Assembly: GCF_029850875.1 (NCBI RefSeq) | Contig: NZ_JAOVAM010000007.1 | Span: 62,001-126,000 of the forward strand | Origin: Rothia similimucilaginosa | Lineage (GTDB): Bacteria; Actinomycetota; Actinomycetes; Actinomycetales; Micrococcaceae | Direction: 5' to 3' | Length of the DNA: 64,000 bases | Part shown: positions 34,831 to 53,998 of the stretch, one piece after another | Layout of the letters: each line of letters begins with the position of its first letter | Position numbering within the stretch: the first letter of the stretch is position 1 | Notes under the pieces: generated by a model | What the model was told of the DNA's origin: nothing | Database searches by the model: none | The model's input: only the letters and a program-made list of their open reading frames with translations | Made by a program: the position numbers and the translations under genes

Positions 34831-34840
34831 TGTAATTACA
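34831..34840. promoter_or_regulatory. TGTAATTACA palindrome, copy 1
   Basis: A perfect 10-bp palindrome 20 bases from the first DnaA box of the intergenic cluster. Partial copies (TGTAATT at 34904 and 34918, AATTACA at 34977) follow. Three further perfect copies flank dnaA and dnaN. The binding protein is unknown. Confidence 0.55.
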
Positions 34841-34859
34841 CACACCCTGGTGTTTAAAG

Positions 34860-35024
34860 TTTTCCACATCTGTGGAGAAATCTGGGGAAAACTCTTACAC
34901 CCGTGTAATTCAGCCTGTGTAATTCGATTGTTTTAGCCTGTATCTACAGATTTTTAACCTACACTCACAATCGTGGAATTACACGAATGTAGTTATACAC
35001 AGTGTGGAAAACTACTGTGGATAA
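34860..35024. promoter_or_regulatory. DnaA-box cluster in a convergent intergenic region
   Basis: Five matches to the DnaA box in 165 bases: TTTTCCACA 34860-34868, TGTGGAGAA 34871-34879, TTATACACA 34993-35001 (exact TTATNCACA), TGTGGAAAA 35003-35011 and TGTGGATAA 35016-35024 (exact). The genes on both sides point toward this gap, so it is unlikely to be a promoter. This fits a DnaA-titrating or DnaA-reactivating locus such as datA or DARS of E. coli, 16-17 kb from the dnaA-dnaN gap. Function is inferred. Confidence 0.65.
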
Positions 35025-35092
35025 CGTATATCAGTGTCGGATTTCGCGGTTTTTCAGGCTCAATACCTGCCGTTGAGCCACTCTTGAGGGCT

Positions 35093-35905
35093 TTACGGCA
35101 GCGGATTCGAGGACTCGGGCTTCTTCGCAAAAGGAAAAAGTAGCAGCGTCAGCAGTACGCCGCCTATAAAGCCACCCGCGTGGCACGCGTGGGAAATATT
35201 TGACGAAGTCAAAAGGCTATAGATGACATTTACCGCGGTAATCATGGCAAACACACGGGCGGTGTCCTTCTGCTTCATGATGATCAGTAGGGTCAAGAAC
35301 GAACCCATCAGGCCAAAAATACCTCCGGAGGCACCCACCACACTGGTTGCAGGAGCCAATACATACACGCCGATGGCTCCAAAGACGATTGAGCCCAGAT
35401 ACACGAAGAGGAACTTCCAGCGGCCCATCATGCGTTCGAGGGACACGCCGTAGATAAACAGATTAATCACGTTCCACACCAGGTGCATCGGGTCATTCTG
35501 CGAATGCAGAAAACCGTAGCTAATGATGCGGTAGTACTCGCCGTGCTGGACGTAGGGCCACCAGATGGCGCCATGTTTAACGACCCATTGGCTGGGGATG
35601 ATCTGTTGCAGGCCGTAAATCGTAGCGGTTATCAAAATGAGCGTGTAGCTAATATGCCAATGGTGCGCCAGGAAGGAGCCCTGCGCCTTCGAGCTGCCGC
35701 CCGTGAGATCGCGGTAGCAATCGGGGCAGACCATCCCCACGTCCAGTGCCACCTGGCATTCGCCGCAGACAGTTCGATTGCAGCGCCCACACTGGGCGTA
35801 GCTCACGCGGTTGGGGTGGTTGATGCAGACCGTGGGGGTCTGTGCATAGCCTGCGTAGTTGGGAAAGTTCTCCACTGAACCTCCAAAGGTTGTGTACCAG
35901 TTCAT
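35093..35905 (-). CDS. Rhomboid intramembrane serine protease with N-terminal zinc finger
   Basis: A 270-residue rhomboid protease that cuts membrane proteins within the bilayer. Residues about 26-65 form a B-box-like zinc-binding domain (CINHP, CGRCNRTVCGEC, CPDC). Six membrane segments follow. Catalytic residues are the Ser of VVGASGGIFGLMG and the His of CHAGGFIGG; HLVWNVINL carries the conserved Asn. Zinc-finger rhomboids of this build are common in actinobacteria. No good ribosome site precedes the ATG, so the start may differ. Its substrates are unknown. Confidence 0.88.
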   Translation of the reverse strand: MNWYTTFGGSVENFPNYAGYAQTPTVCINHPNRVSYAQCGRCNRTVCGECQVALDVGMVCPDCYRDLTGGSSKAQGSFLAHHWHISYTLILITATIYGLQQIIPSQWVVKHGAIWWPYVQHGEYYRIISYGFLHSQNDPMHLVWNVINLFIYGVSLERMMGRWKFLFVYLGSIVFGAIGVYVLAPATSVVGASGGIFGLMGSFLTLLIIMKQKDTARVFAMITAVNVIYSLLTSSNISHACHAGGFIGGVLLTLLLFPFAKKPESSNPLP

Positions 35906-35935
35906 CCGAAGGTGGTGTATGTGGGCATATAAGCG

Positions 35936-35970
35936 CAGGGGCCCACCGGAAGAATCCTGGCGGGCCCCTG
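35936..35970 (-). terminator. Hairpin after cyclophilin gene
   Basis: CAGGGGCCCACCGG pairs with CTGGCGGGCCCCTG. It lies 64 bases beyond the cyclophilin stop on the minus strand and has no strong T run. Confidence 0.55.
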
Positions 35971-36033
35971 AACTATACGTGTTTTCTCAATACCTTCAGC
36001 AGAATGCTTGTATGAGCTTTCTGATCGGGTTTG

Positions 36034-36561
<528 letters not shown>

Positions 36562-36734
36562 GGCTCTATTGTGGCACGGGGCGGTGCTCATTCGCCATCT
36601 AACATATTTTTTCGCCCCGGGCGCACCGTTGAGCGGGCTTTTTGGGCGGGAATTGAATATCCTGAGAGGTGAACACTACGCGCGCGGCGGCGTTTTCTGG
36701 TTGCTAGCGCATTTTAACCGATGGAGGTCACCCT

Positions 36735-37070
36735 ATGTTCTGCTGCAAGAAGCGTAAGGCACGCAAGGCCGCTAAGGCTCAGGCTATCGTCTCTTCTCTG
36801 GCTGCTGTTGAATCCGCGCTGGAAGGCAAGACCGCTGAGATGTTCGCTGAGAAGCTGACCGGCAACAAGAAGGCCCTGAACAAGGCTCGTAAGGCTACCG
36901 CGAAGACCGTTCGTTCCGCTGAGAAGGAACTGGCTCGTATTGAGCGTAACGGCGGCAAGCGCCCCCGTAAGGGGCTGGCGTTCCTGGGTCTGCTGGTTGC
37001 TCTGGGTGTTGCGGGCGCTGCAGCCTATAACGCAGCTCGCCCCGTGGAGGACCCCTGGAAGAACGCATAA
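36735..37070 (+). CDS. Small basic membrane-anchored hypothetical protein
   Basis: A 111-residue protein starting MFCCKKRKARKAAKAQ, with two adjacent cysteines and a dense lysine/arginine patch. A helical middle (about 15-80) rich in Ala and Lys leads to one hydrophobic segment (GLAFLGLLVALGVAGAAAY, about 83-101) and a short outside tail. ATGGAGGTCACCCT gives a good ribosome site. I recognise no family. The basic N-terminus could contact DNA, RNA or lipid; this is speculation. It ends with a strong terminator. Confidence 0.65.
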   Translation: MFCCKKRKARKAAKAQAIVSSLAAVESALEGKTAEMFAEKLTGNKKALNKARKATAKTVRSAEKELARIERNGGKRPRKGLAFLGLLVALGVAGAAAYNAARPVEDPWKNA

Positions 37071-37145
37071 GCGTTATATTCCCCGTTTTTCCTCTCTACA
37101 CGTTCTGAGACGCCGCTAGCGGCGTGAGGGAGTGCTTTATGAAAG

Positions 37146-37198
37146 ATAGCCGCCCGCTAGAGTTGTGCTCTGGTGGGCGGCTATTTATTTATTTTTTT
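37146..37198 (+). terminator. Terminator after small basic protein gene
   Basis: ATAGCCGCCCGC pairs with GTGGGCGGCTAT; the T-rich tail continues to 37198. Confidence 0.85.
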
Positions 37199-37292
37199 AG
37201 GGGGGCAGAGGCAAAAGGAGGCGCTAGAGATAGAGCACTAAATCTCCTTGGGTGCACCCTGCTGTATTTCCCTGAGATACCCGGATATACAA

Positions 37293-37322
37293 AGAACCCC
37301 ATGTCTTTCAACATGGGGTTCT
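37293..37322 (-). terminator. Terminator after 5S rRNA copy 1
   Basis: AGAACCCCATGT pairs with ACATGGGGTTCT around CTTTCA, 13 bases past the 5S 3-prime end on the minus strand, followed by TTTGTAT. Confidence 0.7.
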
Positions 37323-37336
37323 CGGTTCAAAAATAA

Positions 37337-37452
37337 ACCGGCAATAACCTACTCTCCCACACCCTCAAAAGTGCAGTACCATCGGCGCGAAGAGTCTTAG
37401 CTTCTGGGTTCGGAATGGAGCCAGGCGTTTCCCTCTTGCTATAATCACCGGA
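37337..37452 (-). rRNA. 5S ribosomal RNA, copy 1 (orphan)
   Basis: About 116 bases. On the minus strand the ends CCGGTGAT and ATTGCCGG pair as helix I, and conserved 5S stretches GGGAAACGCC, CCATTCCGAACCC, GAAGCTAAG, GCGCCGATGGTACTGCA and GGGTGTGGGAGAGTAGGT are present. No 16S or 23S gene is in the window. It begins about 3 bases after the tRNA-Ala 3-prime end, an unusual arrangement. It has its own terminator. Confidence 0.9.
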
Positions 37453-37455
37453 AAG

Positions 37456-37528
37456 TGGAGGCGAGGGGACTCGAACCCCTAACCCTCTGCTTGCAAAGCA
37501 GATGCGCTACCAATTGCGCCACGCCCCC
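37456..37528 (-). tRNA. tRNA-Ala (anticodon TGC), copy 1
   Basis: 73 bases. Acceptor GGGGGCG pairs with CGCCTCC (one G-U), the D arm has GGCGCAATTGGTAGCGC, the anticodon arm CTGCTTTGCAAGCAG holds TGC, and the T arm has GGTTCGAGTCC. The CCA end is not encoded. It directly precedes a 5S gene on the same strand. Confidence 0.95.
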
Positions 37529-37619
37529 GTGGTGCCCTACTAGTCTATAACAACTTTTACGACTTCACCAAATCCTCAGGTGCATTTTTTTAGTTAAACC
37601 CATCACATTACTGAGGGAT

Positions 37620-38801
37620 TTAGGTAATAACCTCACCCGGCACTGTCGCCTCACGCTTCGTCAGAGCCTGCAGGGAGGCACTAACTTCCTGCAGGTACTT
37701 ACGAACCGCAGTGCGTTGTGCCTCCTTCACAGTCTCCTCCTTCGACTCAGGAGCCGTGAAACCCACCTTAAACCCATCCCACTGGCTCGCCGACGGATAT
37801 TTCTCGCGAGCATTCCACACCAGCGAGAACGACGCCAAAGTGTTGAGCTCCTTCTTCGTGGCAGCCTTCGACAACACATCAGTGACCGTTGCCACACGCG
37901 AAGACTCGGCAACACTCACCGAAATCTTCGACTGCGCACCCGAGGGCAGGCTCAGTGCCTTCTCCGGAGCCAACTGAATATTCAGGTGAATCTGCTGTAC
38001 CCTCTCGTTCTTCAAATCCAGCTCAGCCAGAGTACGGAAACGCTTCATCAGGGATTCATAGTTCTCATCAATCACTGCAGTATTCAGATGCAGCTCATCT
38101 GCCAGCAGGCCCACCTGGGCGTAGCTCGCAGTCGTTCCCAGAGCCGCGTTAGCGGTCAGCACCTTCAGCCACTGCTCTTCCTTCAGGATTGCCGATTCGT
38201 TCACGCGTAGCGGGCTCACCGGCGCATCCGTCACCGTATGAGCAATATTCTGCGGGTCATTCGCCAAGTCCACACCTCCGTAGGTGACGCTCAGCCGATT
38301 CAAAGAACCGTAGACAGACAGGTTTGTCAGCGCTGTAGCAGCCACCGGCAAATCGGCCTGTGCCGCCTCCGTGAGGGAGAAAGAACCCACCAGACGCAGA
38401 TCCTGCTCACGGCGCCCCTGACCCACATAGATACGCCCCAGCGACTCAATCTTCAGGTAGCGGGTATCGATATTTTCACGAATCAGACGCTCGCGGCGCA
38501 CCAACAGCTTCTCGGTTGAAACCACCGCTGCCGCATCCTCGCCCAGCACTCCGGTTGCCGCAATCTGCGGCATTGCGGCGAGCACCCCGGTGGCGGCAAC
38601 CACGCCGCCTGTCAGAAGCAGTGAGCGGCGGGGCACCACGAGGTGGCGCATCTGCCCGGCAATAGCCTTGCGAGCGGCATTTACGCGAGTAGATGGGGTC
38701 TGAGCAACAGAGTCCTCAGCGGCAACCGATGCCGCCTCAGAAGAGCCCTGAGCGGATGTAATGTGAGAGTTCTCGGGTTCAGGGGTAGGTGAAGAAGACA
38801 C
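37620..38801 (-). CDS. Hypothetical signal-anchored protein
   Basis: A 393-residue protein of unknown function. A polar, Ser/Glu-rich N-terminus (about 60 residues) is followed by VVPRRSLLLTGGVVAATGVL, a basic-then-hydrophobic segment resembling a twin-arginine-like signal or membrane anchor, then a mostly beta-looking outside domain of about 300 residues without cysteines. GTG 38801 is chosen because GGAG lies 5 bases before it; a longer form from 38918 has no ribosome site. It is a single gene inside the segment flanked by the tRNA-Ala/5S repeats. The domain was not recognised. Confidence 0.65.
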   Translation of the reverse strand: MSSSPTPEPENSHITSAQGSSEAASVAAEDSVAQTPSTRVNAARKAIAGQMRHLVVPRRSLLLTGGVVAATGVLAAMPQIAATGVLGEDAAAVVSTEKLLVRRERLIRENIDTRYLKIESLGRIYVGQGRREQDLRLVGSFSLTEAAQADLPVAATALTNLSVYGSLNRLSVTYGGVDLANDPQNIAHTVTDAPVSPLRVNESAILKEEQWLKVLTANAALGTTASYAQVGLLADELHLNTAVIDENYESLMKRFRTLAELDLKNERVQQIHLNIQLAPEKALSLPSGAQSKISVSVAESSRVATVTDVLSKAATKKELNTLASFSLVWNAREKYPSASQWDGFKVGFTAPESKEETVKEAQRTAVRKYLQEVSASLQALTKREATVPGEVIT

Positions 38802-38933
38802 AGAATCTCCATAGTGAGAGCGAGCGCAAAGCCCACCGGCGGTTTGAGGGGAGTGAAGTCCCTCTAGAATACCGCTCGCGTCCTTACATCTGCTAAAGAA
38901 TCGCGGCGCATCAATCACAAGGGCATAAAGAAA

Positions 38934-38966
38934 ATCTATGGGGTGGACTCAGTCCACCCCATAGAT
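38934..38966 (-). terminator. Terminator of phosphate transporter operon
   Basis: A 16-bp perfect stem (ATCTATGGGGTGGACT with its complement) around one base, 41 bases past the DUF3349 gene stop on the minus strand, with a short T-rich tail. Confidence 0.75.
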
Positions 38967-39007
38967 CATAAGCTTCATGAGAGCTCTGAACTCTCAGCAC
39001 AGATTAT

Positions 39008-39460
39008 TTAGGCTTCCTCAACCGAAGCAGCGTTCGGAGCCGGGATATTAGCCGACTCAGCAGCAAGCTCCGCAATGCGAATCTCACCGGTCGTCGGATC
39101 CTCATACGCAACATACTCGGTGCCGCCTGCGAGGGGCTCTGCATCCTCGTTCACGTGATTCTCCGCAATTAGGAAACCGTGAGCACCAAGAATCTTAGCG
39201 ACACGATCAATATCCTGAGGAGTCGGAGTATGGTCCACCACGCGACGCATGTACTCATTAATGCGCTGGTCACTGACATATGCCTCACCACGGGCAGCGC
39301 GAGACTGCATGAGCTGACGAACAACTTCTTGCAGCTGCTCATCGGTCAGACGCATCTTCAAAATAGCCATCACTGCCGCACGGTCCTGCACCGGAACATC
39401 CTTGGGATACCCGATGCTCAGCCAGTCGATTACTCGAGAGATTATGCTCTTATCAGGCAC
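39008..39460 (-). CDS. DUF3349 family protein
   Basis: A 150-residue protein. The first 100 residues fit DUF3349, a small helical fold known from mycobacteria: VIDWLSIGYPKDVPVQDRAAVMAILKMRLTDEQ (marked by WLSIGYP and VPVQDR), then VVRQLM and a second helical half ending GAHGFLIA. The acidic C-terminal tail (about 45 residues) adds VAYEDPTTGEIRIAEL. Function unknown. It is third in a minus-strand unit after the phosphate transporter and its small membrane partner. Confidence 0.7.
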   Translation of the reverse strand: MPDKSIISRVIDWLSIGYPKDVPVQDRAAVMAILKMRLTDEQLQEVVRQLMQSRAARGEAYVSDQRINEYMRRVVDHTPTPQDIDRVAKILGAHGFLIAENHVNEDAEPLAGGTEYVAYEDPTTGEIRIAELAAESANIPAPNAASVEEA

Positions 39461-39510
39461 CGAGCCCCTCCTTCAAAGCAGTCATCATATGCAATTTAGT
39501 GTTCACGGGA

Positions 39511-39816
39511 TTAGTGGCCTCCACCGGTTACGCCGAAGATATTCCAGCCGAAAGTGTGGTCGATAAAGTCCTTAGCGACCCAGAGAATACCGATGATTAC
39601 GATTGCTACGATAATAGCAAAAATGCAGGACGCGGCAATCTTCGCCATCGTTCCCGGAGGCTCAATTTCCACAAGCTTGCCGTCCGCCGTGTATTCGGTA
39701 CGACCGGCCAGCAGACGCAGACCCATCGCATACAGTGCCGGAAGGCCCGCACCGAAGAACAGACCGGCGATAAACACCGGAATGACCTTATCTAGAATGT
39801 CGATTACGTACTGCAT
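39511..39816 (-). CDS. Small membrane protein next to phosphate transporter
   Basis: A 101-residue protein with two membrane segments (VIPVFIAGLFFGAGLPALYAM near 10-31 and AASCIFAIIVAIVIIGILWV near 61-80) joined by a polar loop (GRTEYTADGKLVEIEPPG). It begins 2 bases after the PiT gene stop. Small proteins of this kind accompany PiT transporters in several actinobacteria and may be a subunit or regulator; this is inference from position. Confidence 0.7.
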   Translation of the reverse strand: MQYVIDILDKVIPVFIAGLFFGAGLPALYAMGLRLLAGRTEYTADGKLVEIEPPGTMAKIAASCIFAIIVAIVIIGILWVAKDFIDHTFGWNIFGVTGGGH

Positions 39817-39818
39817 GG

Positions 39819-41048
39819 CTACGAACCTGCCTTCTCAGTAGCAAGAGTCTGAGCTTCTGCGGATACTTCAGCGCTGGTGACTGCAGCGCCTTCCTTTTCA
39901 TCCCAGTCGCCAGTCACATTCGAAGCATCAATGTTGTCCTTCCGGGAATGGCGCCACATCAGGAAGCAGAAGATAATCAGCAACGCAAACACGGTCATTT
40001 CGCCAACAAACTGAGTACCGCTCAGAGTATTCAGGCCGTGACCAATCAACCAGGTCAGCGCACCTACAATTGCAGCAGCCGGCAGAGTAATCAGCCAAGC
40101 AACCACCATACGGCCAGCAACGTACCAGCGAACCTCAGCGCCCTTACGACCCAGGCCACTACCCAGAATCGAGCCGGATGCCACGTGAGTGGTGGACAGT
40201 GCCATACCGAAGTGCGAAGAGGTCAGAATAATCGCAGCAGACGCGCCATCAGCAGCAACGCCCTGAGGGGTATCCACCTCAACAATGCCCTTACCGAGGG
40301 TACGGATAATGCGCCAGCCGCCCAGGTAAGTACCCAGGGCAATAGCAACAGCACAGGATGCCTTCACCCACATGGGAATCGCATCGTCATTGTTCAGGGT
40401 GCCCGAAGCAACCAGAGCCAGGAAAATCACGCCCATGGTCTTCTGCGCATCGTTGGTACCGTGTGCCAGAGACATCAGGGAGGCGGTCGCAATCTGTCCC
40501 TTGCGGAAACCACCGTGCTTACGGTCATCAGCAACCGGAGCAGCAATACGGTAAACCAGCCAGGTACCGGTTGCTGCCACGATAGCCGCGATGACGGGGG
40601 AGAGAACCGCGGGAACAATAATCTTGGACAGAACGCCCATCCACTGCACTCCGTCAAAGCCGATAGCGACAATAGCCGAACCAATCAGGCCACCGAACAG
40701 AGCGTGCGACGAGGAGGAGGGAAGACCCAAAAGCCAGGTCAAAACGTTCCAGAGGATGCCGCCAACCAGGCCGGTAAAGACGATGAGCATCAGCGCTGAA
40801 CCATCCGTCGCTACATCGATACGGTCTAGGTTCACGATACCGCTACCGACCGAGCGTGCCACCTCAACGGAGAGGAATGCGCCCACAAGGTTCAGGGACG
40901 CAGAAAGCGCCACGGCGGTCTTAGGCTTCAGAGCACCGGTTGCAATGGAGGTTGCCATCGCGTTACCGGTGTCATGGAAGCCATTCGTAAAGTCGAAGGC
41001 GAGCGCGGTAAGCACCACGATCACGAGAATAATGAGTTCTGTAGTCAC
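39819..41048 (-). CDS. pit: Inorganic phosphate transporter, PiT family
   Basis: A 409-residue low-affinity phosphate/metal-phosphate symporter. Both inverted-repeat family signatures are visible: FDFTNGFHDTGNAMATSIAT near the N-terminus and SLAHGTNDAQKTMGVIFLAL in the second half. Ten or so membrane segments lie between, with a central polar loop and an acidic C-terminal tail. It heads the unit pit-small membrane protein-DUF3349. A PHO-box-like direct repeat lies about 250 bases upstream, hinting at PhoP control. Confidence 0.9.
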   Translation of the reverse strand: MTTELIILVIVVLTALAFDFTNGFHDTGNAMATSIATGALKPKTAVALSASLNLVGAFLSVEVARSVGSGIVNLDRIDVATDGSALMLIVFTGLVGGILWNVLTWLLGLPSSSSHALFGGLIGSAIVAIGFDGVQWMGVLSKIIVPAVLSPVIAAIVAATGTWLVYRIAAPVADDRKHGGFRKGQIATASLMSLAHGTNDAQKTMGVIFLALVASGTLNNDDAIPMWVKASCAVAIALGTYLGGWRIIRTLGKGIVEVDTPQGVAADGASAAIILTSSHFGMALSTTHVASGSILGSGLGRKGAEVRWYVAGRMVVAWLITLPAAAIVGALTWLIGHGLNTLSGTQFVGEMTVFALLIIFCFLMWRHSRKDNIDASNVTGDWDEKEGAAVTSAEVSAEAQTLATEKAGS

Positions 41049-41295
41049 AAGAAAATTATCTGTCGGTTTTCGCGAAATCTAAAGTATTCCGGATTAACAC
41101 GAAATAACAGATGAACCCATATCTATTTACGGGTTTTCGTGAGGGTTTCACTGGAGAGCCTACATTTTAGGAGCAAAAACACTGAAATTCCGCGGCAGGA
41201 TAGGTGCACCCAACAGAATATTTAAGTTGGTTTATGTGGCTTAAGCGTAGACGTGGGGGAGAGGGGCGATTATATCCATCGATAGGCTAAAGTGT
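41049..41295 (-). promoter_or_regulatory. Leader region of the phosphate transporter operon
   Basis: About 250 bases between the PiT start and the PHO-box-like repeat. It is AT-rich near 41090-41120 and presumably holds the promoter. I see no clear terminator, riboswitch or small gene in it or in the rest of the gap to 41562. Confidence 0.35.
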
Positions 41296-41313
41296 GTTCA
41301 CCAAGTGTTCACC
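41296..41313 (-). promoter_or_regulatory. PHO-box-like direct repeat (putative PhoP site)
   Basis: GTTCACC repeated with exactly 11-base spacing: 41296-41302 and 41307-41313. This is the layout of PhoP sites in Streptomyces and relatives (direct 11-base units starting GTTCACC). It is upstream of a phosphate transporter. The distance to the gene and the absence of a mapped promoter keep this tentative. Confidence 0.45.
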
Positions 41314-41562
41314 TTCAGGAACCTCCCAGCTTTCTTTTTTGTGACTCATCTTTATTATTCAGACCTCATTTATCCCTCATTCACGCCCAAGCAGCACCCT
41401 TTTCGCTGCAGATGTGGGTTTCGATCAACTGTACTTGCCATCACACGCCAAGATCACCAAGCTACAGTCAAGAGCTCCCCTCAAAGACCGCAAGCATACA
41501 TAGGTCAGATACAACATGGGACAGATGCCCAGATTGCCATATACCAGCTTCAGCATACAACA

Positions 41563-41595
41563 AAAGACCCCGCATCTTTCGATACGGGGTCTTTT
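41563..41595 (-). terminator. Terminator after 5S rRNA copy 2
   Basis: AAAGACCCCG pairs with CGGGGTCTTT around a loop, 11 bases past the 5S 3-prime end. Minus-strand transcripts end in TTTTGTTG after it. Its sequence is unrelated to the terminator after 5S copy 1. Confidence 0.75.
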
Positions 41596-41605
41596 TCAAA
41601 AAGAA

Positions 41606-41721
41606 ACCGGCAATGACCTACTCTCCCACACCCTCAAAAGTGCAGTACCATCGGCGCGAAGAGTCTTAGCTTCTGGGTTCGGAATGGAGCCAGGCGTTTC
41701 CCTCTTGCTATAATCACCGGA
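41606..41721 (-). rRNA. 5S ribosomal RNA, copy 2 (orphan)
   Basis: Same sequence as copy 1 apart from one base in the 3-prime strand of helix I (a G in the plus-strand sequence at 41615). It is the last gene of tRNA-Ile, tRNA-Ala, 5S. The usual 23S gene between tRNA-Ala and 5S is absent. Confidence 0.9.
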
Positions 41722-41724
41722 AAG

Positions 41725-41797
41725 TGGAGGCGAGGGGACTCGAACCCCTAACCCTCTGCTTGCAAAGCAGATGCGCTACCAATTGCGCCACGCCCCC
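41725..41797 (-). tRNA. tRNA-Ala (anticodon TGC), copy 2
   Basis: Identical to copy 1. It lies 144 bases downstream of tRNA-Ile(GAT), the same pair that follows gyrA in mycobacteria and other actinobacteria. Confidence 0.95.
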
Positions 41798-41941
41798 GTC
41801 TCAGCGGAAACCACTGTTTAGTTATTCTTCCAAGCCTTCACGACTTCATTGCTCTGATACTTCTTCAAGATCTTCACAGTGACACACGAAATAACAGTAA
41901 GAATCAATAATCTCTTCATTATTGCCTTTCATAGTGTGGAG

Positions 41942-42015
41942 TGGGCGTACCAAGAATCGAACTTGGGACCTCTTCGTTATCAGCGAAGCGCTCTAACCGT
42001 CTGAGCTATACGCCC
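41942..42015 (-). tRNA. tRNA-Ile (anticodon GAT)
   Basis: 74 bases. Acceptor GGGCGTA pairs with TACGCCC, D arm AGCTCAGACGGTTAGAGCG, anticodon loop CTGATAA holds GAT, and T arm has GTTCGATTC. Only one copy is present in the window, so it was not part of the repeat that carries tRNA-Ala and 5S. Confidence 0.95.
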
Positions 42016-42157
42016 TCCCTCTGCGGAATTTCTTCCGTAGAACGAAATATAACTATACAGGTTTTTGAAGGTAACACCAAACCAAAAAAGCATGTTCTGC
42101 ATCACATTTAATATCGAAGGTTCCCGAGCATACAGAACGGGGACATACAGAACGAGC

Positions 42158-42187
42158 GGCACCGTCTCCATCGGAGACAGTACCGCC
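42158..42187 (-). terminator. Hairpin after DUF3566 gene
   Basis: GGCACCGTCTCC pairs imperfectly with GGAGACAGTACCGCC, 28 bases beyond the DUF3566 stop on the minus strand. A near-repeat ACAGAACGGGGACATACAGAACGAG is next to it. Confidence 0.5.
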
Positions 42188-42214
42188 CGCACACAAAGCT
42201 CAAAAAGCTACAAA

Positions 42215-42796
42215 CTAGGACTCATCGCTCAGAGTCAAGGTCACGCCACCAACCAGCTTCGCAGCCAGGTTGTAAAGAATCGCGCCAATCATACCCAGCA
42301 GAGTAAAGACCACAGTATTGGCCACAGCAAAAATAGTAGTCACCAAAGCAACCTGACCCAGCGAAATCATCTGCGAAATATCTACAGCAGTCGAACCGGT
42401 ACCCAGAGAGCTAATCAGCTGGTTCACACCGACAAACGCGCCAGAAGCCTGCAGGAACAGCCACAGAATCACCGAAGCCACCACAGTCACAATGCCCAGA
42501 GCAATAGACAGCAGGAAGATCAGCTTAGCCACCGACCACGTATCAACCTTCTGAACCACCAAACGCGCGCGACGAATCTTCGAACGCGGCGCCGGACGCA
42601 CCAACTGACGGCGCGAACCGGTCGGACGCTTAGTCTTTACAGGGCGCTTGCCAGCAGGACGCTTAGCGGTACCGCCAGGACGAGCCTGACCCGAACGCGA
42701 CTGAGCCGGGCGACGCGCACCAGCCTTAGCCGCACCCGAAGACTTGGATGCGCCAGCCGACGCCGAACGCTGTGTCGACGCAGGAGTGCTGCTCAT
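42215..42796 (-). CDS. DUF3566 membrane protein
   Basis: A 193-residue protein, the usual neighbour of gyrA in actinobacteria (as Rv0007 in M. tuberculosis). About 75 N-terminal residues are disordered and rich in Ala, Arg, Ser and Pro, then ARLVVQKVDTWSVAKLIFLL starts the DUF3566 core with two membrane segments and a polar loop between them. Its ATG shares one base with the gyrA stop codon, so it is translationally coupled. A link to cell envelope or division is suspected but not proven. Confidence 0.85.
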   Translation of the reverse strand: MSSTPASTQRSASAGASKSSGAAKAGARRPAQSRSGQARPGGTAKRPAGKRPVKTKRPTGSRRQLVRPAPRSKIRRARLVVQKVDTWSVAKLIFLLSIALGIVTVVASVILWLFLQASGAFVGVNQLISSLGTGSTAVDISQMISLGQVALVTTIFAVANTVVFTLLGMIGAILYNLAAKLVGGVTLTLSDES

Positions 42797-45426
42797 TAGT
42801 TACCTCCAGTAGCGGTGAGATCGGCAGTTGCCGCTTCACCCTCGTTGTCCGTACCGGGCGTCTCAGAAGACTCCGAAGCCTCGGTGTTCTCAGTGGTTTC
42901 ATCGTCGCTATCATCCAGCTGACGATCCTGGTTGCGCGCAACACCAATAATAGAATCGCCCTTACTGGGCTTTGCAAAGATAACACCCATAGTATCGCGT
43001 CCCTTCGCGGGAACCTCATTCACGTTCGAGCGAACGACCTTACCGCTGGCCATAACCACCAGCACCTCGTCCTCTTCATCCACAATGAGGCCACCCACCA
43101 GGGCGCCACGATCCTCAACTAGCTTAGCAACCTTAATGCCAAAACCGTTACGGCCCTGCACGCGATACTCATCCACGCTCGTACGCTTCGCGTAACCACC
43201 CTCAGTGACCACGAAGACGAAGGAGCCCTCAGTGACCACATTCGCAGAAATCAGCTCATCGCCCTCACGGAACTTCATACCGGTCACACCGGAAGTGGAG
43301 CGACCCATCGGACGCAGCGACTCATCATCAGCGTGGAAGCGCAGCGACATACCGTTACGCGACACCAGCAGAATATCGTCCTGAGCCGACACAGTGAACG
43401 CCGAAACAACCTCATCGCCCTCACGCAGGTTAATCGCAATCAGGCCGGCAGTACGGTTCGTATCGTAATCGCTCAGGCGGCTCTTCTTCACCATACCGCC
43501 GCGAGTAGCAAGCACCAGGTACTCAGCATCGTCGTAATTCTTCAGCTCCATGACCTGAGCAATATGCTCGCCGCCCTGGAACTCCAGCAGGTTCGCAATG
43601 TGCTGGCCCTTCGCGTCACGGCCAGCTTCCTGCAGCTCGTAACCCTTCGCACGGTACACGCGACCCAGGTTCGTGAAGAACAGAATCCAGCTGTGCGTAG
43701 TGGTCACAAAGAAATGCTCCACCACATCATCACCGCGCAGAGAGGCACCCTTAATACCCTTACCACCTCGGTGCTGGCTACGGTACTGATCACTGCGGGT
43801 GCGCTTAATGTAGCCGCCGCGAGTAATCGTAACCATGACCTCCTCCTCAGGGATGAGGTCCTCCATGGACATGTCACCGTTGTAGCCGTACATAATCTGG
43901 GTGCGACGCTCATCGCCGTAGCGATTCACAATCTCGCCCAGCTCCTCAGAGATAATCTCGCGCTGGCGAATCTCCGAGGCAATAATCGCGTTGTACTCAG
44001 CAATCATACGCATCAGCTCATCGTGGCGATCCTGAATCTTCTGACGCTCCAACGCAGCCAGACGACGCAGCTGCATGTTCAGAATTGCCTGGGCCTGAGC
44101 CTCATCAATCTGCAGGAACTCCATCAGGCTGCTACGCGCCTCATCAGCGGTGGGGGAGCGGCGAATCAAGGCGATAACCTCATCCAAAGCATCCAGAGCC
44201 TTCAGTAGGCCACGCAGGATGTGTGCCTCTTCCTCCGCCTGACGCAGACGGTAACGGGTACGACGAACGACAACGTCCATCTGGTGATCCACCCAGTGAC
44301 GCACAAACGCGTCCAGGGACAGGGTACGCGGCACACCATCAACAATGGCGAGCATATTCGCGGAGAAGTTTTCCTGCAGCTGGGTGTGCTTGTACAGGTT
44401 GTTCAACACAACCTTCGGGGAAGCATCACGCTTGAGCACAATCACCAGACGCTGACCGGTACGACCCGACGTCTCATCGCGCAAATCCGCGATGCCGCTG
44501 ACCTTACCGTCCTTGATGAGCTCAGCAATCTTAATTGCTAGGTTATCCGGGTTTGCCTGGTACGGCAGCTCGGTCACCACGAGACAGGTACGACCGTGGA
44601 TTTCTTCCACGTTGACCACCGCGCGCATGGTAATGGAACCACGACCGGTACGGTACGCATCCTCAATGCCCTTGGTGCCCAGAATCTGTGCACCGGTGGG
44701 GAAGTCGGGGCCCTTAATGCGCGCCATCAGCGCGTTCAGCAGCTCATCATTGGTGGCGTGCGGGTTCTTCAGGAACCACTCCACACCCTCGGCAACCTCA
44801 CGCAGGTTATGCGGCGGAATATTAGTCGCCATACCCACAGCAATACCCGAAGAACCGTTAACCAGCAGGTTCGGGATGCGTGAGGGTAGAACGGTAGGCT
44901 CCAGGGACTTGCCGTCGTAGTTGGGCTGGAAATCAACGGTGTCTTCGTTGATATCACGCACCATCTCCAAGGCAATGGGAGCCATCTTGGTCTCGGTGTA
45001 TCGAGGCGCTGCAGCACCGTCATTACCCGGAGAGCCGAAGTTACCCTGACCCAGTGCCAGCGGATAACGCATAATCCAGCTCTGAATCAGACGCACCAGA
45101 GTGTCGTAGATAGCGCTGTCACCGTGGGGGTGGAACTGACCCATCACATCGCCGACCACGCGGGCGCATTTGTTGAAGGATCGGTCCGGACGGTAGCCGC
45201 CATCGTACATCGCGTAGATCACACGGCGGTGCACCGGCTTGAGGCCGTCACGCACATCCGGCAGGGCACGACCGATAATAACCGCCATCGCATAGTCCAG
45301 GTAGGAACGCTGCATTTCAGTCTGCAGGTCCACCTGCTCAATGTGACCGTGGTGGTCTACGCTTTCAGCACCACCATTGCTGACTACGTCAACCTCGGTG
45401 GTCTCATTCTGGTGTTCTTCGCTCAT
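42796..45426 (-). CDS. gyrA: DNA gyrase subunit A
   Basis: The 876-residue breakage-reunion subunit of DNA gyrase, which introduces negative supercoils. The catalytic Tyr lies in [10 protein letters not shown]. The quinolone-resistance region reads [14 protein letters not shown], with Ser and Asp at the two hot-spot sites, so no classic resistance change is seen. C-terminal blades include the GyrA box [10 protein letters not shown]. The last 50 residues are acidic, rich in Glu, Asp and Thr, and unlike E. coli GyrA. It follows gyrB by 79 bases; MSEEHQNET is the start with GAGAAAG upstream. Confidence 0.97.
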
Positions 45427-45505
45427 AACTTTCTCATTTGTTTATGCCCCATAGAGTCATATACCTCATTTGACATATGTCATATGGGGTATATACCCTT
45501 TCGGG

Positions 45506-47952
<2,447 letters not shown>

Positions 47953-48648
47953 CTACCCGTATGTGTCACGTACACCGCGCATGCCGGTAGCGCGCCGATA
48001 GCCTCGCTGATTCCAGTGTCCGTTATTCGGACCCAGTACTCGAACTTGAGCTACGATACCTTCACCCAGTTCGTGGCGGAATAGTTCAATGAGGTGCCCC
48101 TGCATCAGGCGCAGCTGAGTCGTCCAGGCGGTAGAGTCGCATTGGACTTCAACAATGGAGTTTTCGAAGCTGATCGGGCGGGTGTGCGCCGCGATTTCAG
48201 GGCCCACCAGCTCTGCCCAGCGAGCCAGCACACTAGAGACTGCCACGGGCTCTTTCCATCCGCGAGAACGCATCAGAGCACTGACGATACCACCGAGGGG
48301 TTTGGGATCGCGAGAGCTCTCTCCGGGGCCGCTATAGCCGCCCATAACGCGGGGGTCCCAGCCCTGCGCTCGCAGTGATTTCTTCTTCGAGGCGGTGCCG
48401 GACATGACCGCACCAAAATCGCGCATAATTTTATTCGCTGAGAAGACGTTCAGGGGCGCCTCGCCGCGTTCTTGAGCTGCCACTCGCATGCGGGTCAGCA
48501 GGGCGGAGGGGGCATCCACCTCGTCACGGTAGAACTCACCTACGCAGTCAACCTCGCGCGGATTTTGAGTCTCCACAAACTGCGATTCCGCGAATTCATC
48601 GAATGTTTCACGTGAAACATGGTTTTGGGGACGGGTGGGGTTACTCAT
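47953..48648 (-). CDS. dciA: DciA-like helicase-loader protein (DUF721)
   Basis: A 231-residue protein. Its C-terminal half is the KH-like DUF721 domain: SSVLARWAELVGPEIAAHTRP, then VEVQCDSTAWTTQLRLMQ and the end VRVLGPNNG. DUF721/DciA proteins help load the replicative helicase in bacteria that lack DnaC, and actinobacterial forms sit between recF and gyrB as here. ATG 48648 lies inside the end of recF (8-base overlap), so the two are coupled. The N-terminal 90 residues are variable, and codons for HVSRETF carry a parS site. Confidence 0.82.
   Translation of the reverse strand: MSNPTRPQNHVSRETFDEFAESQFVETQNPREVDCVGEFYRDEVDAPSALLTRMRVAAQERGEAPLNVFSANKIMRDFGAVMSGTASKKKSLRAQGWDPRVMGGYSGPGESSRDPKPLGGIVSALMRSRGWKEPVAVSSVLARWAELVGPEIAAHTRPISFENSIVEVQCDSTAWTTQLRLMQGHLIELFRHELGEGIVAQVRVLGPNNGHWNQRGYRRATGMRGVRDTYG
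48604..48619. promoter_or_regulatory. parS site inside dciA
   Basis: TGTTTCACGTGAAACA, a perfect 16-base parS match, within the N-terminal coding part of dciA where it encodes the peptide VSRET. Confidence 0.95.
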
Positions 48649-49882
48649 TGCCGTCACTCTCCTCGAGCGCAGAATCGGTTGAGCTCGACCGTCCCGCAGA
48701 GTCAGTGACAGAGTCGGTGGCAGGATGCGCATACTCGGCGTGTCCCGCGGTCACCGACACCAGCCGGTAGTCGCCCAGCTCCTCCGGAATATCACTAAGT
48801 ACCGCGCAGGTAATCAGCACCTGCTCCGCGCCAGCAACCATCGCACCCAGGCGGTGGCGGCGCGCAGAATCCAGCTCCGCAAACACATCATCAAGAATCA
48901 GAATCGGCGAAGAACCCACCGAGGAGTCATCCTCAACATGCACAAACCAGGACGCCAATTTCAGTGCCAGCGCAAAAGACCAGCTCTCCCCGTGCGAGGC
49001 AAAATGCTTCACCGGCATGCCGCCGAGAAGCAGGGTAATATCCTCACGGTGCGGACCCACCAGGGTCACGCCACGCTCAATCTCATCGCGCCTACGCTCC
49101 GCAAAACCACGCATCAAAGCCTCCTTGAGGTCCTCAATGCGCATCAGCGCCGCATGCTCGATTGAGCGCTCGCCCATGCTCGAAAAAACAGTCGACTCAT
49201 AGTTGAACCCGACCTCTTTAGAGCCGTCCGTCAGCCCCGCATAGGCACGGCGAAGCTGCGGCAAAAAACGCTGCAGCAGACGAAAACGCGCAGAAAGCAG
49301 CTGGGCGCCCAGAGTCGACAGCTGCTCATCCCACACCAAGAGTGTGCTCAAAGCGTTCTCGTCCCGCGCCTTACGCTGCATGGATTTCAGCAGCGAATTA
49401 CGCTGCCGCAAAATCCGCTCATACTCGCTACGGTAGCCGGCAACCACCGGACGCAAAGAGATAGCCAGCTCATCCACAAAACGACGACGACCCGCAGGAT
49501 CCCCCTTCACCAATTGAAGATCCTCCGGAGAAAACAGCACCGTGCGGGCAATACCCAGCGCCTCCTTAGCACGCACCGGCGCGGCACGATTAATGCGCAC
49601 CCGGTTACTCTGCCCCGGAGCAATCTCAAACTCAGTCACCGTCTGCTGCGAACCACGCACCGTACGGGTGCGAATATAAGCTCGCAAAGCGCCCATCCGC
49701 ACCAGCGGCCCGTCATAACTTACACGGTGCGAAGATAGCGACGCTGCATAGTCGATCGCCTCAACAATGTTGGTTTTCCCCACACCATTCGAGCCCAGAA
49801 ACACCGTAACTCCCGCCGAAAGAGGCAGACTCAGCAGAGCGTAGGTGCGGTAATCCAACAACGAAATATGGTCGATATACAC
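48641..49882 (-). CDS. recF: DNA replication and repair protein RecF
   Basis: A 413-residue SMC-like ATPase that helps load RecA at gaps. Walker A is FLGSNGVGKTNIVEAIDY near residue 30, the signature and Walker B regions include SWSFALALK and ILILDDVFAELDSARR. The C-terminal 30 residues are Ser/Asp-rich and variable. It follows dnaN by 205 bases and overlaps dciA. The usual order dnaA-dnaN-recF is kept. Confidence 0.95.
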   Translation of the reverse strand: MYIDHISLLDYRTYALLSLPLSAGVTVFLGSNGVGKTNIVEAIDYAASLSSHRVSYDGPLVRMGALRAYIRTRTVRGSQQTVTEFEIAPGQSNRVRINRAAPVRAKEALGIARTVLFSPEDLQLVKGDPAGRRRFVDELAISLRPVVAGYRSEYERILRQRNSLLKSMQRKARDENALSTLLVWDEQLSTLGAQLLSARFRLLQRFLPQLRRAYAGLTDGSKEVGFNYESTVFSSMGERSIEHAALMRIEDLKEALMRGFAERRRDEIERGVTLVGPHREDITLLLGGMPVKHFASHGESWSFALALKLASWFVHVEDDSSVGSSPILILDDVFAELDSARRHRLGAMVAGAEQVLITCAVLSDIPEELGDYRLVSVTAGHAEYAHPATDSVTDSAGRSSSTDSALEESDGNE

Positions 49883-50087
49883 CGGAAGCTCCTTTCACGG
49901 GGTTTCATACGCGGGTTCTTAGCTAGGGTTCTTATCTTAGGGCTTCACGGCACCCTGCTGGAAGGCACAGTGAGAGGTCACAATACTAGGTTTTTCCGCG
50001 CGGATGAGCACAGAAAAAACAGCGCAACCCCGCACATACTCGCGGCGCATGGGCGCCGAAAGACGTACGGGGCGGCAAAGGCTGGAC

Positions 50088-51212
50088 CTAGTTCGACGGC
50101 AGGCGAACCGGCATCAGCAGGTAACGGTAGTTGCGGTCATCCTCAGCCAGAGGCTCGTTCTGACCGGAAATCACGGCGGGCTTCGGCGCATCGGTGAAGG
50201 AGAAACGAACAAACTCAGTACCGAAAACCTTCAAACCATCCGAGAGGTAGGCGGGGTTGTACGCAACGGTGATGTCATTACCGGACAGGTGCGCCTGCAG
50301 AGTCTCGGAAGCCTGAGCCTCATCACCGCGGCCGGCATCAATAGCAACCGAACCCTGAGTGAATTTCAGACGCAGGGGAGTGTTGCGCTCCGCCACGAGG
50401 GAGATACGTCGAGCAGCCTCAGCCAGATCGGAGGTGCGAACAACTGCGTGGATCGGGGTCTGCTCCGGGAACAGTGCGCGGATGTTGGGGTAGTCACCGT
50501 CCATCAGAACACTGGTGGTGCGGCGGGAGCCGGCAGTAAAGCCGATCAGCTCGCCGGCGGCGGGCAGAGCGATAGACAGTTCACCAGATCCGGAGAGGGT
50601 GCTACCGACCTCGGAGACGGTCTTAGCCTTCAGCAGCACAGCCGCCTGAACATCGGGGTTGACCGGGTTCCACTTAATTTCGCGCATTGCCAGGCGATAG
50701 CGGTCGGTGGCAAGCAGGGTCATGGTGTCGCCATTAATTTCTACGCGGATACCGGTCAGCAGCGGCAGGGTCTCATCTTTGGACACCGCAATCTGAACCT
50801 GCTTAACGGCTTCAGCGAACTCAGCACCGTCCACGGTACCGGAAATTTCGGGAAGCTCGGGAAGCTCGGGGTAGTCCACGACCGGCATGCCAGCCAGCTG
50901 GAAGTTAGCGGAACGGCAGTGAATACGAATAACGGACTCATCTGCAGTGAACTCGACGGGCGAGTTCGGCAAAGAACGGCAAATTTCTGCCAGGATTTTG
51001 CCGGGAACCAGGCAAACGCCTTCTACTTCAACATCGGCTGCAATGACCTGACGGGCGCTGGTCTCGTGATCGAAGCTTGCGATGCTAACCTCACCTGCGG
51101 AGGCGGTAATCAGCAGACCGTTGAGTACGGGGGAGGTGGGACGCAACGGAAGTGAGCGTGCCGTCCAGCCGACTGCTTCGGCAAGGACATCGCGTTCAAC
51201 GGTGAATTTCAT
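50088..51212 (-). CDS. dnaN: DNA polymerase III beta sliding clamp
   Basis: A 374-residue clamp of three similar domains that rings DNA and tethers the polymerase. MKFTVERDVLAEAVGWTARSL is the standard N-terminus of actinobacterial clamps, and the C-terminus ends RYLLMPVRL. ATG 51212 is chosen over 51230 because the family begins MKF. It is 788 bases from the dnaA stop, a gap that includes part of the origin. It is the last gene before a 205-base gap to recF. Confidence 0.96.
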   Translation of the reverse strand: MKFTVERDVLAEAVGWTARSLPLRPTSPVLNGLLITASAGEVSIASFDHETSARQVIAADVEVEGVCLVPGKILAEICRSLPNSPVEFTADESVIRIHCRSANFQLAGMPVVDYPELPELPEISGTVDGAEFAEAVKQVQIAVSKDETLPLLTGIRVEINGDTMTLLATDRYRLAMREIKWNPVNPDVQAAVLLKAKTVSEVGSTLSGSGELSIALPAAGELIGFTAGSRRTTSVLMDGDYPNIRALFPEQTPIHAVVRTSDLAEAARRISLVAERNTPLRLKFTQGSVAIDAGRGDEAQASETLQAHLSGNDITVAYNPAYLSDGLKVFGTEFVRFSFTDAPKPAVISGQNEPLAEDDRNYRYLLMPVRLPSN

Positions 51213-51348
51213 CGAGAAGGCGCCTTTCACGGAATTAGATAGTAGTTTTTGGGCGCACGTAAAACTTTGGACGATAGAGCCGGAAATACCGCGTGCTCTG
51301 ATGCGCAGTGAATCTTCCGCGCGCGCGTCTATCCATCCTACCGGATTT

Positions 51349-51358
51349 TGTAATTACA
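51349..51358. promoter_or_regulatory. TGTAATTACA palindrome, copy 2
   Basis: A perfect copy 136 bases upstream of the dnaN start, in the dnaA-dnaN gap. Confidence 0.55.
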
Positions 51359-51427
51359 CAGAGACTCGAAGGTCAATCCTGTAGTGAAAAATTGGGTGGG
51401 GTAAGGCATTAAGGGCCGCTGTATTTT

Positions 51428-51437
51428 TGTAATTACA
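51428..51437. promoter_or_regulatory. TGTAATTACA palindrome, copy 3
   Basis: A perfect copy 69 bases beyond copy 2 (start to start 79), preceded by TTTT as copies 1 and 2 are. Confidence 0.55.
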
Positions 51438-51639
51438 AAGATAGGTGGAAGATGCAGTGAATCCAGTCGAAAAAAGATTCGAACTAGATGATGATTCAGT
51501 GTTGGTTTCTTATGCAAACCCAAGCTCAGAGATAGCATGCAGCGATCAATCCAAATCCGCAAAAATCTACGATTTTCAGTAGGGACACATAGAAAAACCT
51601 GAACCAACCCGGTTTGCTGAGCAGAACGACTTGTTATGG

Positions 51640-51999
51640 GGAGGATTTTTTCTTTAAGTATAGTAGTATTGTTAACGCTTGTGGAAACGGTGGAAAACCC
51701 CTTCCTTGCCTGCAATGACACGGAAGTAGCCTGTGGACATTAAGTGGAAGAATCCACTCAGTGCTGAGGATGCATTGTGTATGGATATTTATACATTTTC
51801 TCAATTCCACACCTTTTGAATATTCATGCACTTAACGTCCACACGAATGCATGAGTTAAAGCACAGCTTATCCACACCCCGAAAATCCACTTTTTCGAGT
51901 CACTAAAATCCTTGAATCCAGCGTGAATGCTCGCCCGGAATCCCATAAAACATCTAGTCGAGGCGTAAAATAAGCTACGGAACGGGGAGAAAAGCACAT
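51640..51999. other. oriC: Probable origin of replication, dnaA-dnaN side
   Basis: An AT-rich 769-base gap between dnaN and dnaA. DnaA boxes: TTATCCACA 51868-51876 (exact), TGTGGAAAC 51680-51688, TGTGGACAT 51732-51740 (reverse of ATGTCCACA) and weaker AATTCCACA near 51804 and ACGTCCACA 51835-51843. The stretch 51645-51675 is very rich in T and A and could be the unwinding element. This position is the usual actinobacterial oriC. Exact limits need experiment. Confidence 0.7.
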
Positions 52000-53700
52000 T
52001 TAGCCGGCGGCGCGCTGCTCCTGGCGGATCAAATTCGTCAGTTCAGTCACCTGGTTGAAAATTGTCTGACGTTCAGCCATCTGTGCGCTCACCTTACGCA
52101 CCGCGTGCATCACCGTCGTATGGTCGCGGCCACCCAAATCGTTGCCAATACGCGGTAGAGACATCTCGGTCAGCTCACGCAGAAGATACATCGCCACCTG
52201 ACGCGCATTCGTGAGTGTACGGGTGCGAGACTTCGACTGCATATCCTCAATGGAGACATCAAAATACTTCGCCACCGTCGCCAAAACCAGTGCTGATGTA
52301 ATCTCCGCGCCACCGGTATCAGAGAGCAAATCCTTCAGATAAGTCTCAGCCTCAGCCAGGGTAATGGGCTCCGGCGGCTTCTTCATCGAGGCGGCAGCGC
52401 TCGCACGAATTAGCGCGCCCTCCAACTCGCGAATATTGGCCGTGACATGGGACGCAATGTATTCCATGACGTCATCGCGCACCGGCAAAATCTCGTTCTG
52501 AGCCTTCTTCCGCAGAATCGCGATACGAGTCTCCAGCTCCGGAGGCTGCACATCCACATTCAGGCCTGAACCGAACCGTGAACGCATACGCTCAGCAAAA
52601 CCGGTCAGCTGCTTCGGCGGCAAATCAGAGGTAATCACGATCTGCTTCTGGTGGTTATACAGGGCGTTAAACGTATGGAAGAACTCTTCCATCGTCGCCT
52701 CTTTACCCGCCAAAAACTGGATATCGTCAATCAGCAGAACATCGACATTGCGGTAAATCTGCTTGAACGACGAACCCTCATCGTCACGAATCGAGTTAAT
52801 GAAGTCATTCGTGAACTCCTCAGAATTCACGTAGCGCACCCGCAAATTCGGGTACAGATACTTGGTGTAGTGGCCGATCGCGTGCAGCAGGTGGGTCTTA
52901 CCCAGACCCGAACCGCCGTAGATGAACAGCGGGTTGTAGACAATGCCGGGTTGCTCCGCCACTGCGAAAGCGCTTGCGTGCGCAAAGCGGTTGGACTGAC
53001 CAATCACGAAGGTGTCGAAGGTGTAATTCGGGTTCAGTCGGGCAGAGCTATCCCAAGTCGGCGCGTTTTCCGGGTCTTCATGCGGATGCACCTGCTGAGC
53101 CTCCGGTACCGCCGGGGCGTCCGGAACGAAAGAAGGTGTCGGGTATTCGCGAGGAGATGGCGCCTCAACAGGAGCTGTCGGAGCGGGCTGCTGTACGGAG
53201 GGGAATCCGGCACGCTCCGCCTCCAAAGCATGCATAGAGGGGCGGGTGACCTGCTCATCAGCGGGCACCTCGTAGTGGTCCGGACCCGGATGCGGCTCCG
53301 TGTAGTACTCAAAGGCACGCGAGCCAGCGGGCGTCTCGGGATGCACAGAAGCCGTCGTTATCGAAGGGGTTGGCTGGTGCTCAACAGGAACCTCACGCTC
53401 ACCCTGGAAAACGTCCTGACTTGCAGGTTCAACCGGAAGCATCGACTCATTCACATCGAAAAGCGCGGTGGTTGAGGGGCCAAAAGCCTCGTGCAGAGCC
53501 GCACGGAACGAAGCACTAATCTGTTCCTCGAAGACTGCACGGGTCAGCTTATTCGGCACCTCAATGATGAGACGAGAAGAACCCATCAGACCCTGAGGCT
53601 GCGCAAGATTCACGAAACCACGCTGACGTGCCGTCACTGCCGGATCAGCGGCAAGAATAGAGATCAGATGCGCCCAGCGCGCCTGAAGGGAGTCGGTCAT
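52000..53700 (-). CDS. dnaA: Chromosomal replication initiator DnaA
   Basis: A 566-residue initiator. Domain I (1-85) starts [20 protein letters not shown]; domain II (about 90-240) is a long Pro/Glu/Thr-rich linker, longer than in many bacteria; domain III has Walker [18 protein letters not shown] and Walker [14 protein letters not shown]; domain IV ends with [16 protein letters not shown], the DnaA-box-binding helix. ATG 53700 gives the standard MTDS-like start; a GTG at 53718 is possible. The region upstream holds several DnaA boxes, so it is probably self-regulated. Confidence 0.97.
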
Positions 53701-53812
53701 GGAATTCTTTACTTTCACTCGATGTGAAGCGGTGGTTCAGTAAAGAAAATCATGCCGGAAACCACCGCGAGGTCATTAAGATTCTACCCGCTTAATGCAC
53801 AGGGGAGGAAAG

Positions 53813-53998
53813 TTATCCACAAGAGTTTTCCACACGGTGGAAAACTTGTAATTACAGAGGTGGATAAGTAGTTGGAATTGAGCGTGTAGCAAGGCTTCTT
53901 CCTTGATATTTAGCGGAACAGCCTGGTGATGCATGGGTGTGGATAACTCACTAATAATAGAAGGGCTGGATGAGATATACACCGTGGTGGATATTGTG
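53813..53998. promoter_or_regulatory. DnaA-box cluster upstream of dnaA
   Basis: TTATCCACA 53813-53821 and TGTGGATAA 53938-53946 are exact boxes on opposite strands; TTTTCCACA 53826-53834, GGTGGAAAA 53836-53844, GGTGGATAA 53859-53867 and GGTGGATAT near 53987 are close. This can be both a dnaA autoregulatory site and the second half of a two-part origin. Confidence 0.75.
53847..53856. promoter_or_regulatory. TGTAATTACA palindrome, copy 4
   Basis: A perfect copy lying among the DnaA boxes upstream of dnaA, 12 bases from TTTTCCACA and 2 bases from GGTGGATAA. Confidence 0.55.

Follow-up and report, generated by a model that had tools for sequence, protein, structure and literature searches.

Which protein, if any, recognizes the short palindrome TGTAATTACA that accompanies the DnaA boxes of a Rothia chromosome, and could it act together with DnaA in the control of replication? 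The stretch analysed (the window, 64 kb) is part of contig C11 of a 2.05 Mb genome, and its DnaA shares 83% identity with the protein of Rothia mucilaginosa. Exact copies of TGTAATTACA are located at 34831, 51349, 51428 and 53847 and nowhere else in the window, against 0.02 expected from dinucleotide shuffles, as anticipated in a preliminary description of this DNA, which held that the 10-mer should be rare and placed all four copies within or beside three DnaA-box regions. One copy is found between the convergent genes for a shikimate 5-dehydrogenase-like protein and a rhomboid protease, two between dnaA and dnaN, and one between rpmH and dnaA. DnaA-type boxes (TTWTNCACA) number 13 in the window where 2.3 are expected, and they cluster where the palindromes lie. 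A relaxed scan, allowing one mismatch and the three arrangements TGTAA-N0-TTACA, TGTAA-N1-TTACA and TTACA-N4-TGTAA (the last hereafter N4), places seven of eight matches inside the same three regions, the eighth being at position 3436. The account that we favour, by a little more than an even chance, is that TGTAATTACA and the N4 form are predicted sites of a regulator, most likely ResR/McdR, that are combined with DnaA boxes into composite elements tuning replication.

The actual unit is a pair of TTACA/TGTAA half-sites and not the 10-mer alone, and the pairs in the DnaA-box regions are chiefly TTACA-N4-TGTAA or TGTAA-N0/1-TTACA. Spacers of 0–12 were scanned in both half-site orders and compared with a 58 kb background. 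In the distal cluster, as we call the region between the two convergent genes, taken together with a second DnaA-box cluster near sodA, the order TTACA..TGTAA peaks at spacer 4 (21 against 0 in the background, and at most 3 at other spacers) and the order TGTAA..TTACA at spacer 0 (15 against 0, and at most 4 at others). The latter pair at spacer 0 is also frequent in the flanks of oriC, with 21 against 2 in the background for Rothia and 9 against 1 for Kocuria. The N4 form matches the operator AATnACAnnnnTGTnATT of the MerR-family regulator ResR/McdR, an inverted AATnACA / TGTnATT with a spacer of exactly 4, for which electrophoretic mobility shift assays have shown that both halves and the 4-nt spacer are required (PMC9040748). 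The preliminary description suggested that an unknown protein may coordinate replication start at oriC and at the distal cluster; conserved, positioned elements are indeed common to both, as such a linking protein would demand, but the protein need not be unknown, since the N4 arrangement is that of this published operator.

The N4 sites at the distal cluster, at the sodA cluster and upstream of dnaA mostly differ from the operator 18-mer by 1–2 mismatches. When AATnACAnnnnTGTnATT was searched with at most one mismatch, most Rothia genomes covered gave matches at the distal and sodA clusters, and two genomes of the Kocuria group gave a match 13–14 kb from the oriC palindrome. Of the 11 Rothia genomes searched that bear the palindrome, 10 have an exact TTACANNNNTGTAA at the distal position, as do three genomes of the Kocuria group; in R. 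aeria (G001) it is there only as a one-mismatch form. Allowing two mismatches, the operator 18-mer occurs 29 times in the oriC flanks of 80 loci and 6 times in the remainder, mainly about 180 bp upstream of dnaA. In R. aeria two identical TATTACATATATGTAATA sites are located 2.3 kb apart (L251:1224 and L251:3532), about 25 kb from oriC.

The distal cluster (34831–35024) groups its DnaA boxes in non-coding DNA away from oriC, where no promoter that it might serve is evident. It is flanked on the left by the shikimate 5-dehydrogenase-like gene (33899–34717, plus strand) and on the right by the rhomboid protease gene (35093–35905, minus strand), beyond which lies ppiA for a cyclophilin-type peptidyl-prolyl isomerase (36034–36591, minus strand). 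It contains the TGTAATTACA palindrome found by exact search (34831–34840), a DnaA box TTTTCCACA (34860–34868, plus strand), an exact N4 operator TTACACCCGTGTAA (34895–34908) and a composite operator-DnaA module (34977–35024, plus strand). The module starts with an operator of ResR/McdR type, as judged by sequence (AATTACACGAATGTAGTT, 34977–34994), which is overlapped by a one-mismatch palindrome TGGAATTACA (34974–34983), and continues with the DnaA boxes TTATACACA (34993–35001, plus strand), TTTTCCACA (35003–35011, minus strand), whose centre is 21.5 bp from that of the operator, and TTATCCACA (35016–35024, minus strand), 13 bp beyond the preceding box.

The spacing to DnaA boxes, for which the preliminary description proposed a check, is fixed. 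Operator centre and DnaA-box centre are 21.5–22.5 bp apart, with the CACA end of the box inward, in 17 pairs of N4 site and box. This spacing holds in the distal cluster, in both halves of the sodA cluster and upstream of dnaA; these instances are orthologous between species, yet each genome of the window's clade carries four separate copies. The second DnaA box is usually 13 bp beyond the first. Upstream of dnaA in the window, the palindrome at 53847–53856 has its centre 21.5 bp from that of a DnaA box TTTTCCACA (53826–53834, plus strand) and 34.5 bp from that of a box TTATCCACA (53813–53821, plus strand), the same distances as in the module at 34977. Here TGTAATTACA thus occupies the place that the N4 operator has in other modules, which is the best evidence that the two arrangements do the same work.

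At the sodA cluster (L275:12819-13311, corresponding to G000:C9:162818-163310) six boxes fall within 500 bp, accompanied by two operator-DnaA modules and a single palindrome, and related clusters are present in R. aeria and others. No half-site pairs accompany the four isolated DnaA-box pairs found elsewhere in the genome (L270–L273). Three of these (L271, L272, L273) are inverted TTATCCACA pairs 27–35 bp apart, with identical geometry in two.

Beyond the genus, 396 genomes of the order were searched with a 32 bp pattern of the module, allowing two mismatches. It was matched in 66 genomes belonging to 18 genera, with one match for the reversed control, and the counterpart of the module at 34977 is found beside the rhomboid and ppiA genes. 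Among 30 loci fetched from other families (f3, f4, f6 and f9), 29 have a rhomboid match and 24 a ppiA match too; of the DnaA-like boxes in these loci, 101 are no more than 500 bp from the module and 3 are elsewhere. In three assemblies of Micrococcaceae whose sequence begins at dnaA, the module comes at 15–17.6 kb, after ppiA and the rhomboid gene. As module and rhomboid/ppiA neighbours recur across families, the distal cluster of the window is one copy of an old conserved DnaA locus. In family f9 (L306, L308) operators apparently stand on both sides of the DnaA boxes of the rhomboid-side cluster. No earlier description of operator-DnaA loci was found in the literature searched, whose coverage leaves out most subscription journals.

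A candidate for the regulator is encoded at C6:43159-43617, a protein with a MerR_1 domain and an FtsR-like gene adjacent, which we take to be the orthologue of M. tuberculosis Rv1830 from synteny and its match to CvkR. CvkR is its best match in the PDB, and the next closest solved MerR structures are GlnR proteins. The reported identity between CvkR and McdR is 33% (PMC9938897), and overexpression of McdR in M. smegmatis increased the origin-proximal copy number and induced dnaN (PMC9040748). N4 operators are located upstream of WhiB-family genes at six Kocuria-group and four Rothia loci. Among 248 genomes of the family TGTAATTACA is concentrated in Rothia, where the count reaches 12, in genus g5, to which the Kocuria genomes belong and where 0–3 copies, mostly one, are found, and in genus g6, with usually exactly one; in the g6 loci closely examined this single copy sits in the promoter of mcdR, the MerR-family Rv1830 orthologue. 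McdR is a probable binder of the N4 sites.

Several observations weigh against this assignment and the composite elements built on it. In M. smegmatis an altered spacer abolished McdR binding (PMC9040748), so that a spacer-0 palindrome, which has the half-sites of the operator in reversed order, would have to be bound in a different mode or by a different protein. Around TGTAATTACA, outer half-sites at spacer 4 are not enriched among 93 distinct sites, and tandem McdR dimers behind every TGTAATTACA were rejected on this ground, although overlaps do occur in the distal cluster. For both reasons the chances that McdR binds TGTAATTACA itself are put lower, and are about evenly balanced. The targets named from DIP-seq (DNA immunoprecipitation sequencing) of McdR in M. 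smegmatis are whiB2, MSMEG_0833 and MSMEG_5468, and not oriC (PMC9040748). The window's own clade gave no N4 site near whiB2, and the mcdR promoters of Rothia and Kocuria are without the motif, by which autoregulation of mcdR in these two genera is rejected. The second cluster of R. nasimurium-type genomes (L221, L222) has DnaA boxes without an operator, and the genomes of the order without a module match are uninformative because the pattern includes the operator. Finally, the whole 2.05 Mb genome has 12 exact copies of TGTAATTACA (0 for the reversed control), five of which adjoin DnaA-box clusters, namely the four in the window and one at C9:163205 near sodA, and the other seven have no DnaA box within 600 bp. 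The proposal that the palindrome occurs only beside DnaA boxes consequently fails genome-wide. Judged by the preliminary description's own grounds for refutation the outcome is mixed, as copies away from the boxes exist, yet conservation between species is strong.

A different DNA-binding protein might work with DnaA at the half-sites, the likeness to the McdR operator being due to convergence or to a half-site that many proteins of the MerR fold recognize. The spacer-0/1 palindrome, its flanks and the mcdR promoters of Rothia and Kocuria just described speak for such a protein, as do the GlnR proteins, which come next to CvkR among the solved MerR structures: the sites of GlnR/TnrA consist of TGTNA half-sites, and McdR therefore does not have this half-site to itself. 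This view is opposed by the N4 sites upstream of whiB genes, a tested McdR target, the place relative to DnaA boxes that N4 site and palindrome share, and the g6 palindrome in the mcdR promoter, and we regard another protein as possible but clearly the less likely answer. FtsR, a Rv1828-like MerR protein, was rejected as binder, its published motif being a different 25-bp repeat (PMC6683498). A literature search for the 10-mer TGTAATTACA made no bacterial operator of such kind evident among the papers that it listed.

Are the palindromes instead ordinary operators for dnaN, dnaA and other promoters, near DnaA boxes only because dnaA and dnaN share the oriC region? In the window dnaN, the sliding clamp gene (50088–51230, minus strand), is preceded by two palindromes, one (51349–51358) just upstream of a putative -10 region (TAGGAT, minus strand) and one at 51428–51437. 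Farther on come a DnaA box TTATCCACA (51868–51876, plus strand), which belongs to the part of oriC between dnaA and dnaN, and dnaA itself (52000–53718, minus strand). On the other side of dnaA, the palindrome at 53847 lies in the promoter region of that gene, and another box TTATCCACA (53938–53946, minus strand) is found before rpmH (54273–54410, plus strand, read from the sequence), which borders the intergenic region. Positions upstream of the dnaN -10 and in the dnaA promoter region suit ordinary operators, as do other intergenic copies, for instance before purC and near pta.

Conservation of oriC was examined in 80 dnaA loci taken from genome contigs. Shortly upstream of dnaN, the dnaA-dnaN spacer carries one or two exact TGTAATTACA in Rothia loci and one in most Kocuria, with no exact copy in the Kocuria loci L024 and L034. 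The distance from palindrome to putative dnaN -10 varies widely, from about 8 to 61 bp, but where an upstream AATAACA-type element is recognizable the first downstream palindrome starts 45–51 bp from it in most loci (57–58 in two) while the intervening sequence differs; the window's own clade deviates from this spacing. With the distance to the -10 variable and those to the AATAACA element (in most loci) and the DnaA boxes fixed, and with the promoterless distal cluster between convergent genes kept with its operator beside rhomboid and ppiA, ordinary operators are an improbable explanation. Upstream of dnaA, mostly at -150 to -285, the half-site arrangement differs by genus: N4 in Kocuria, TGTAAGTTACA in the R. 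nasimurium clade, TGTAATTACA in R. mucilaginosa, and fused half-site forms in K. massiliensis and Sinomonas. The dnaA-dnaN interval of Buchananella hordeovulneris (L072:11203) contains a perfect palindrome of 22 bp, AAAGCTTGTAATTACAAGCTTT. Two actinobacterial dnaA loci of the sample are filed under the titles Vibrio cholerae strain 35D and Proteobacteria MAG (metagenome-assembled genome; L043, L070), and the titles look wrong or the assemblies contaminated.

Some of the seven box-free copies are inside open reading frames, one treS-like (L003) and one with pentapeptide repeats (L006); the treS-like copy is probably no real site, being coding sequence in which TGT AAT TAC AAG gives CNYK. Box-free copies are also origin-proximal in G000, G014, G003, G005, G006 and G028, as if marking an origin domain. 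In G014, with a 2.29 Mb chromosome, all 12 exact copies are within about 320 kb of oriC, and G003 and G005 are similar, counts that have no matched control. That TGTAATTACA marks an origin-proximal domain like the sites of Noc, RacA or ParB, bound by a segregation or nucleoid-occlusion protein, is very improbable despite the origin-proximal copies in chromosome-scale Rothia assemblies, as the motif is tied to DnaA boxes at fixed spacing, most of genus g5 has about one copy per genome, and the genome has only one ParB-family protein, by which a Noc-like paralogue is rejected as binder.

The best reading is then an ancient DnaA locus resembling E. coli datA/DARS, together with sites at oriC, where a regulator of ResR/McdR type would stand beside DnaA. 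On this reading four locations carry the composite elements: the region upstream of dnaA, the dnaA-dnaN interval close to the AT-rich unwinding region, the rhomboid/ppiA locus 17–19 kb away, and the sodA cluster. Bound some two helical turns from the pair of DnaA boxes and on the same face of the DNA, the regulator would promote or impede the assembly of DnaA. Initiation and gene expression would thereby be tuned at oriC and at the promoters of dnaA and dnaN, and the titration or recycling of DnaA at the outlying clusters, as is done by IHF and Fis at datA and DARS. The regulator may also act on transcription of dnaA, dnaN and whiB2, and since ResR/McdR also represses the division gene whiB2 in mycobacteria, replication would be coupled to division. 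Extended to the order, a ResR/McdR-type MerR protein in the role of IHF and Fis at oriC, at the dnaA/dnaN promoters and at the rhomboid-side locus, coupling initiation to division through whiB2, is a tentative proposal to which we give slightly less than even weight.

Replication timing in actinobacteria is poorly understood, and the sites offer a concrete, testable link between DnaA and a regulator that is described as essential in mycobacteria, is implicated in the drug resilience of M. tuberculosis, and, when overexpressed, reportedly increases origin copy number in a way that still lacks an explanation. With them comes a DnaA locus in non-coding DNA that is conserved and can be traced across several families. 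The data suggest that in many actinobacteria the control of DNA replication directly incorporates a cell-division regulator of a type described in the tuberculosis bacillus.

Second-protein sites between or near DnaA boxes are known at actinobacterial oriC for MtrA, AdpA and IciA. MtrA boxes are direct repeats of a GTCACAgcg-like sequence and AdpA sites are TGGCSNGWWY (PMC4285127), in contrast to the inverted TTACA/TGTAA pairs described here, and both proteins were rejected as binders since these published oriC sites differ. Chromosomal DnaA-box clusters outside oriC repress untimely initiation in Streptomyces coelicolor and Bacillus subtilis (cited in PMC5742627), and resemble the clusters found here, but no associated MerR-type operator was found described for them in the literature searched. 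A parallel in layout is offered by E. coli datA/DARS, where IHF and Fis act (PMC5742627). Like those loci, the present clusters gather DnaA boxes in non-coding DNA away from oriC, lie at a conserved position and have the predicted site of a second protein at fixed spacing, but the partner site is a MerR-type operator and the phylum is another one. With the ResR/McdR operator the N4 sites share the half-sites and the 4-nt spacer, the position upstream of whiB genes in Kocuria and some Rothia, and an orthologue encoded in the genome. The sites described here differ from it in being joined to DnaA boxes, both at oriC and at the DnaA loci outside it, and their most visible form, TGTAATTACA, has the reversed half-site order and no spacer.

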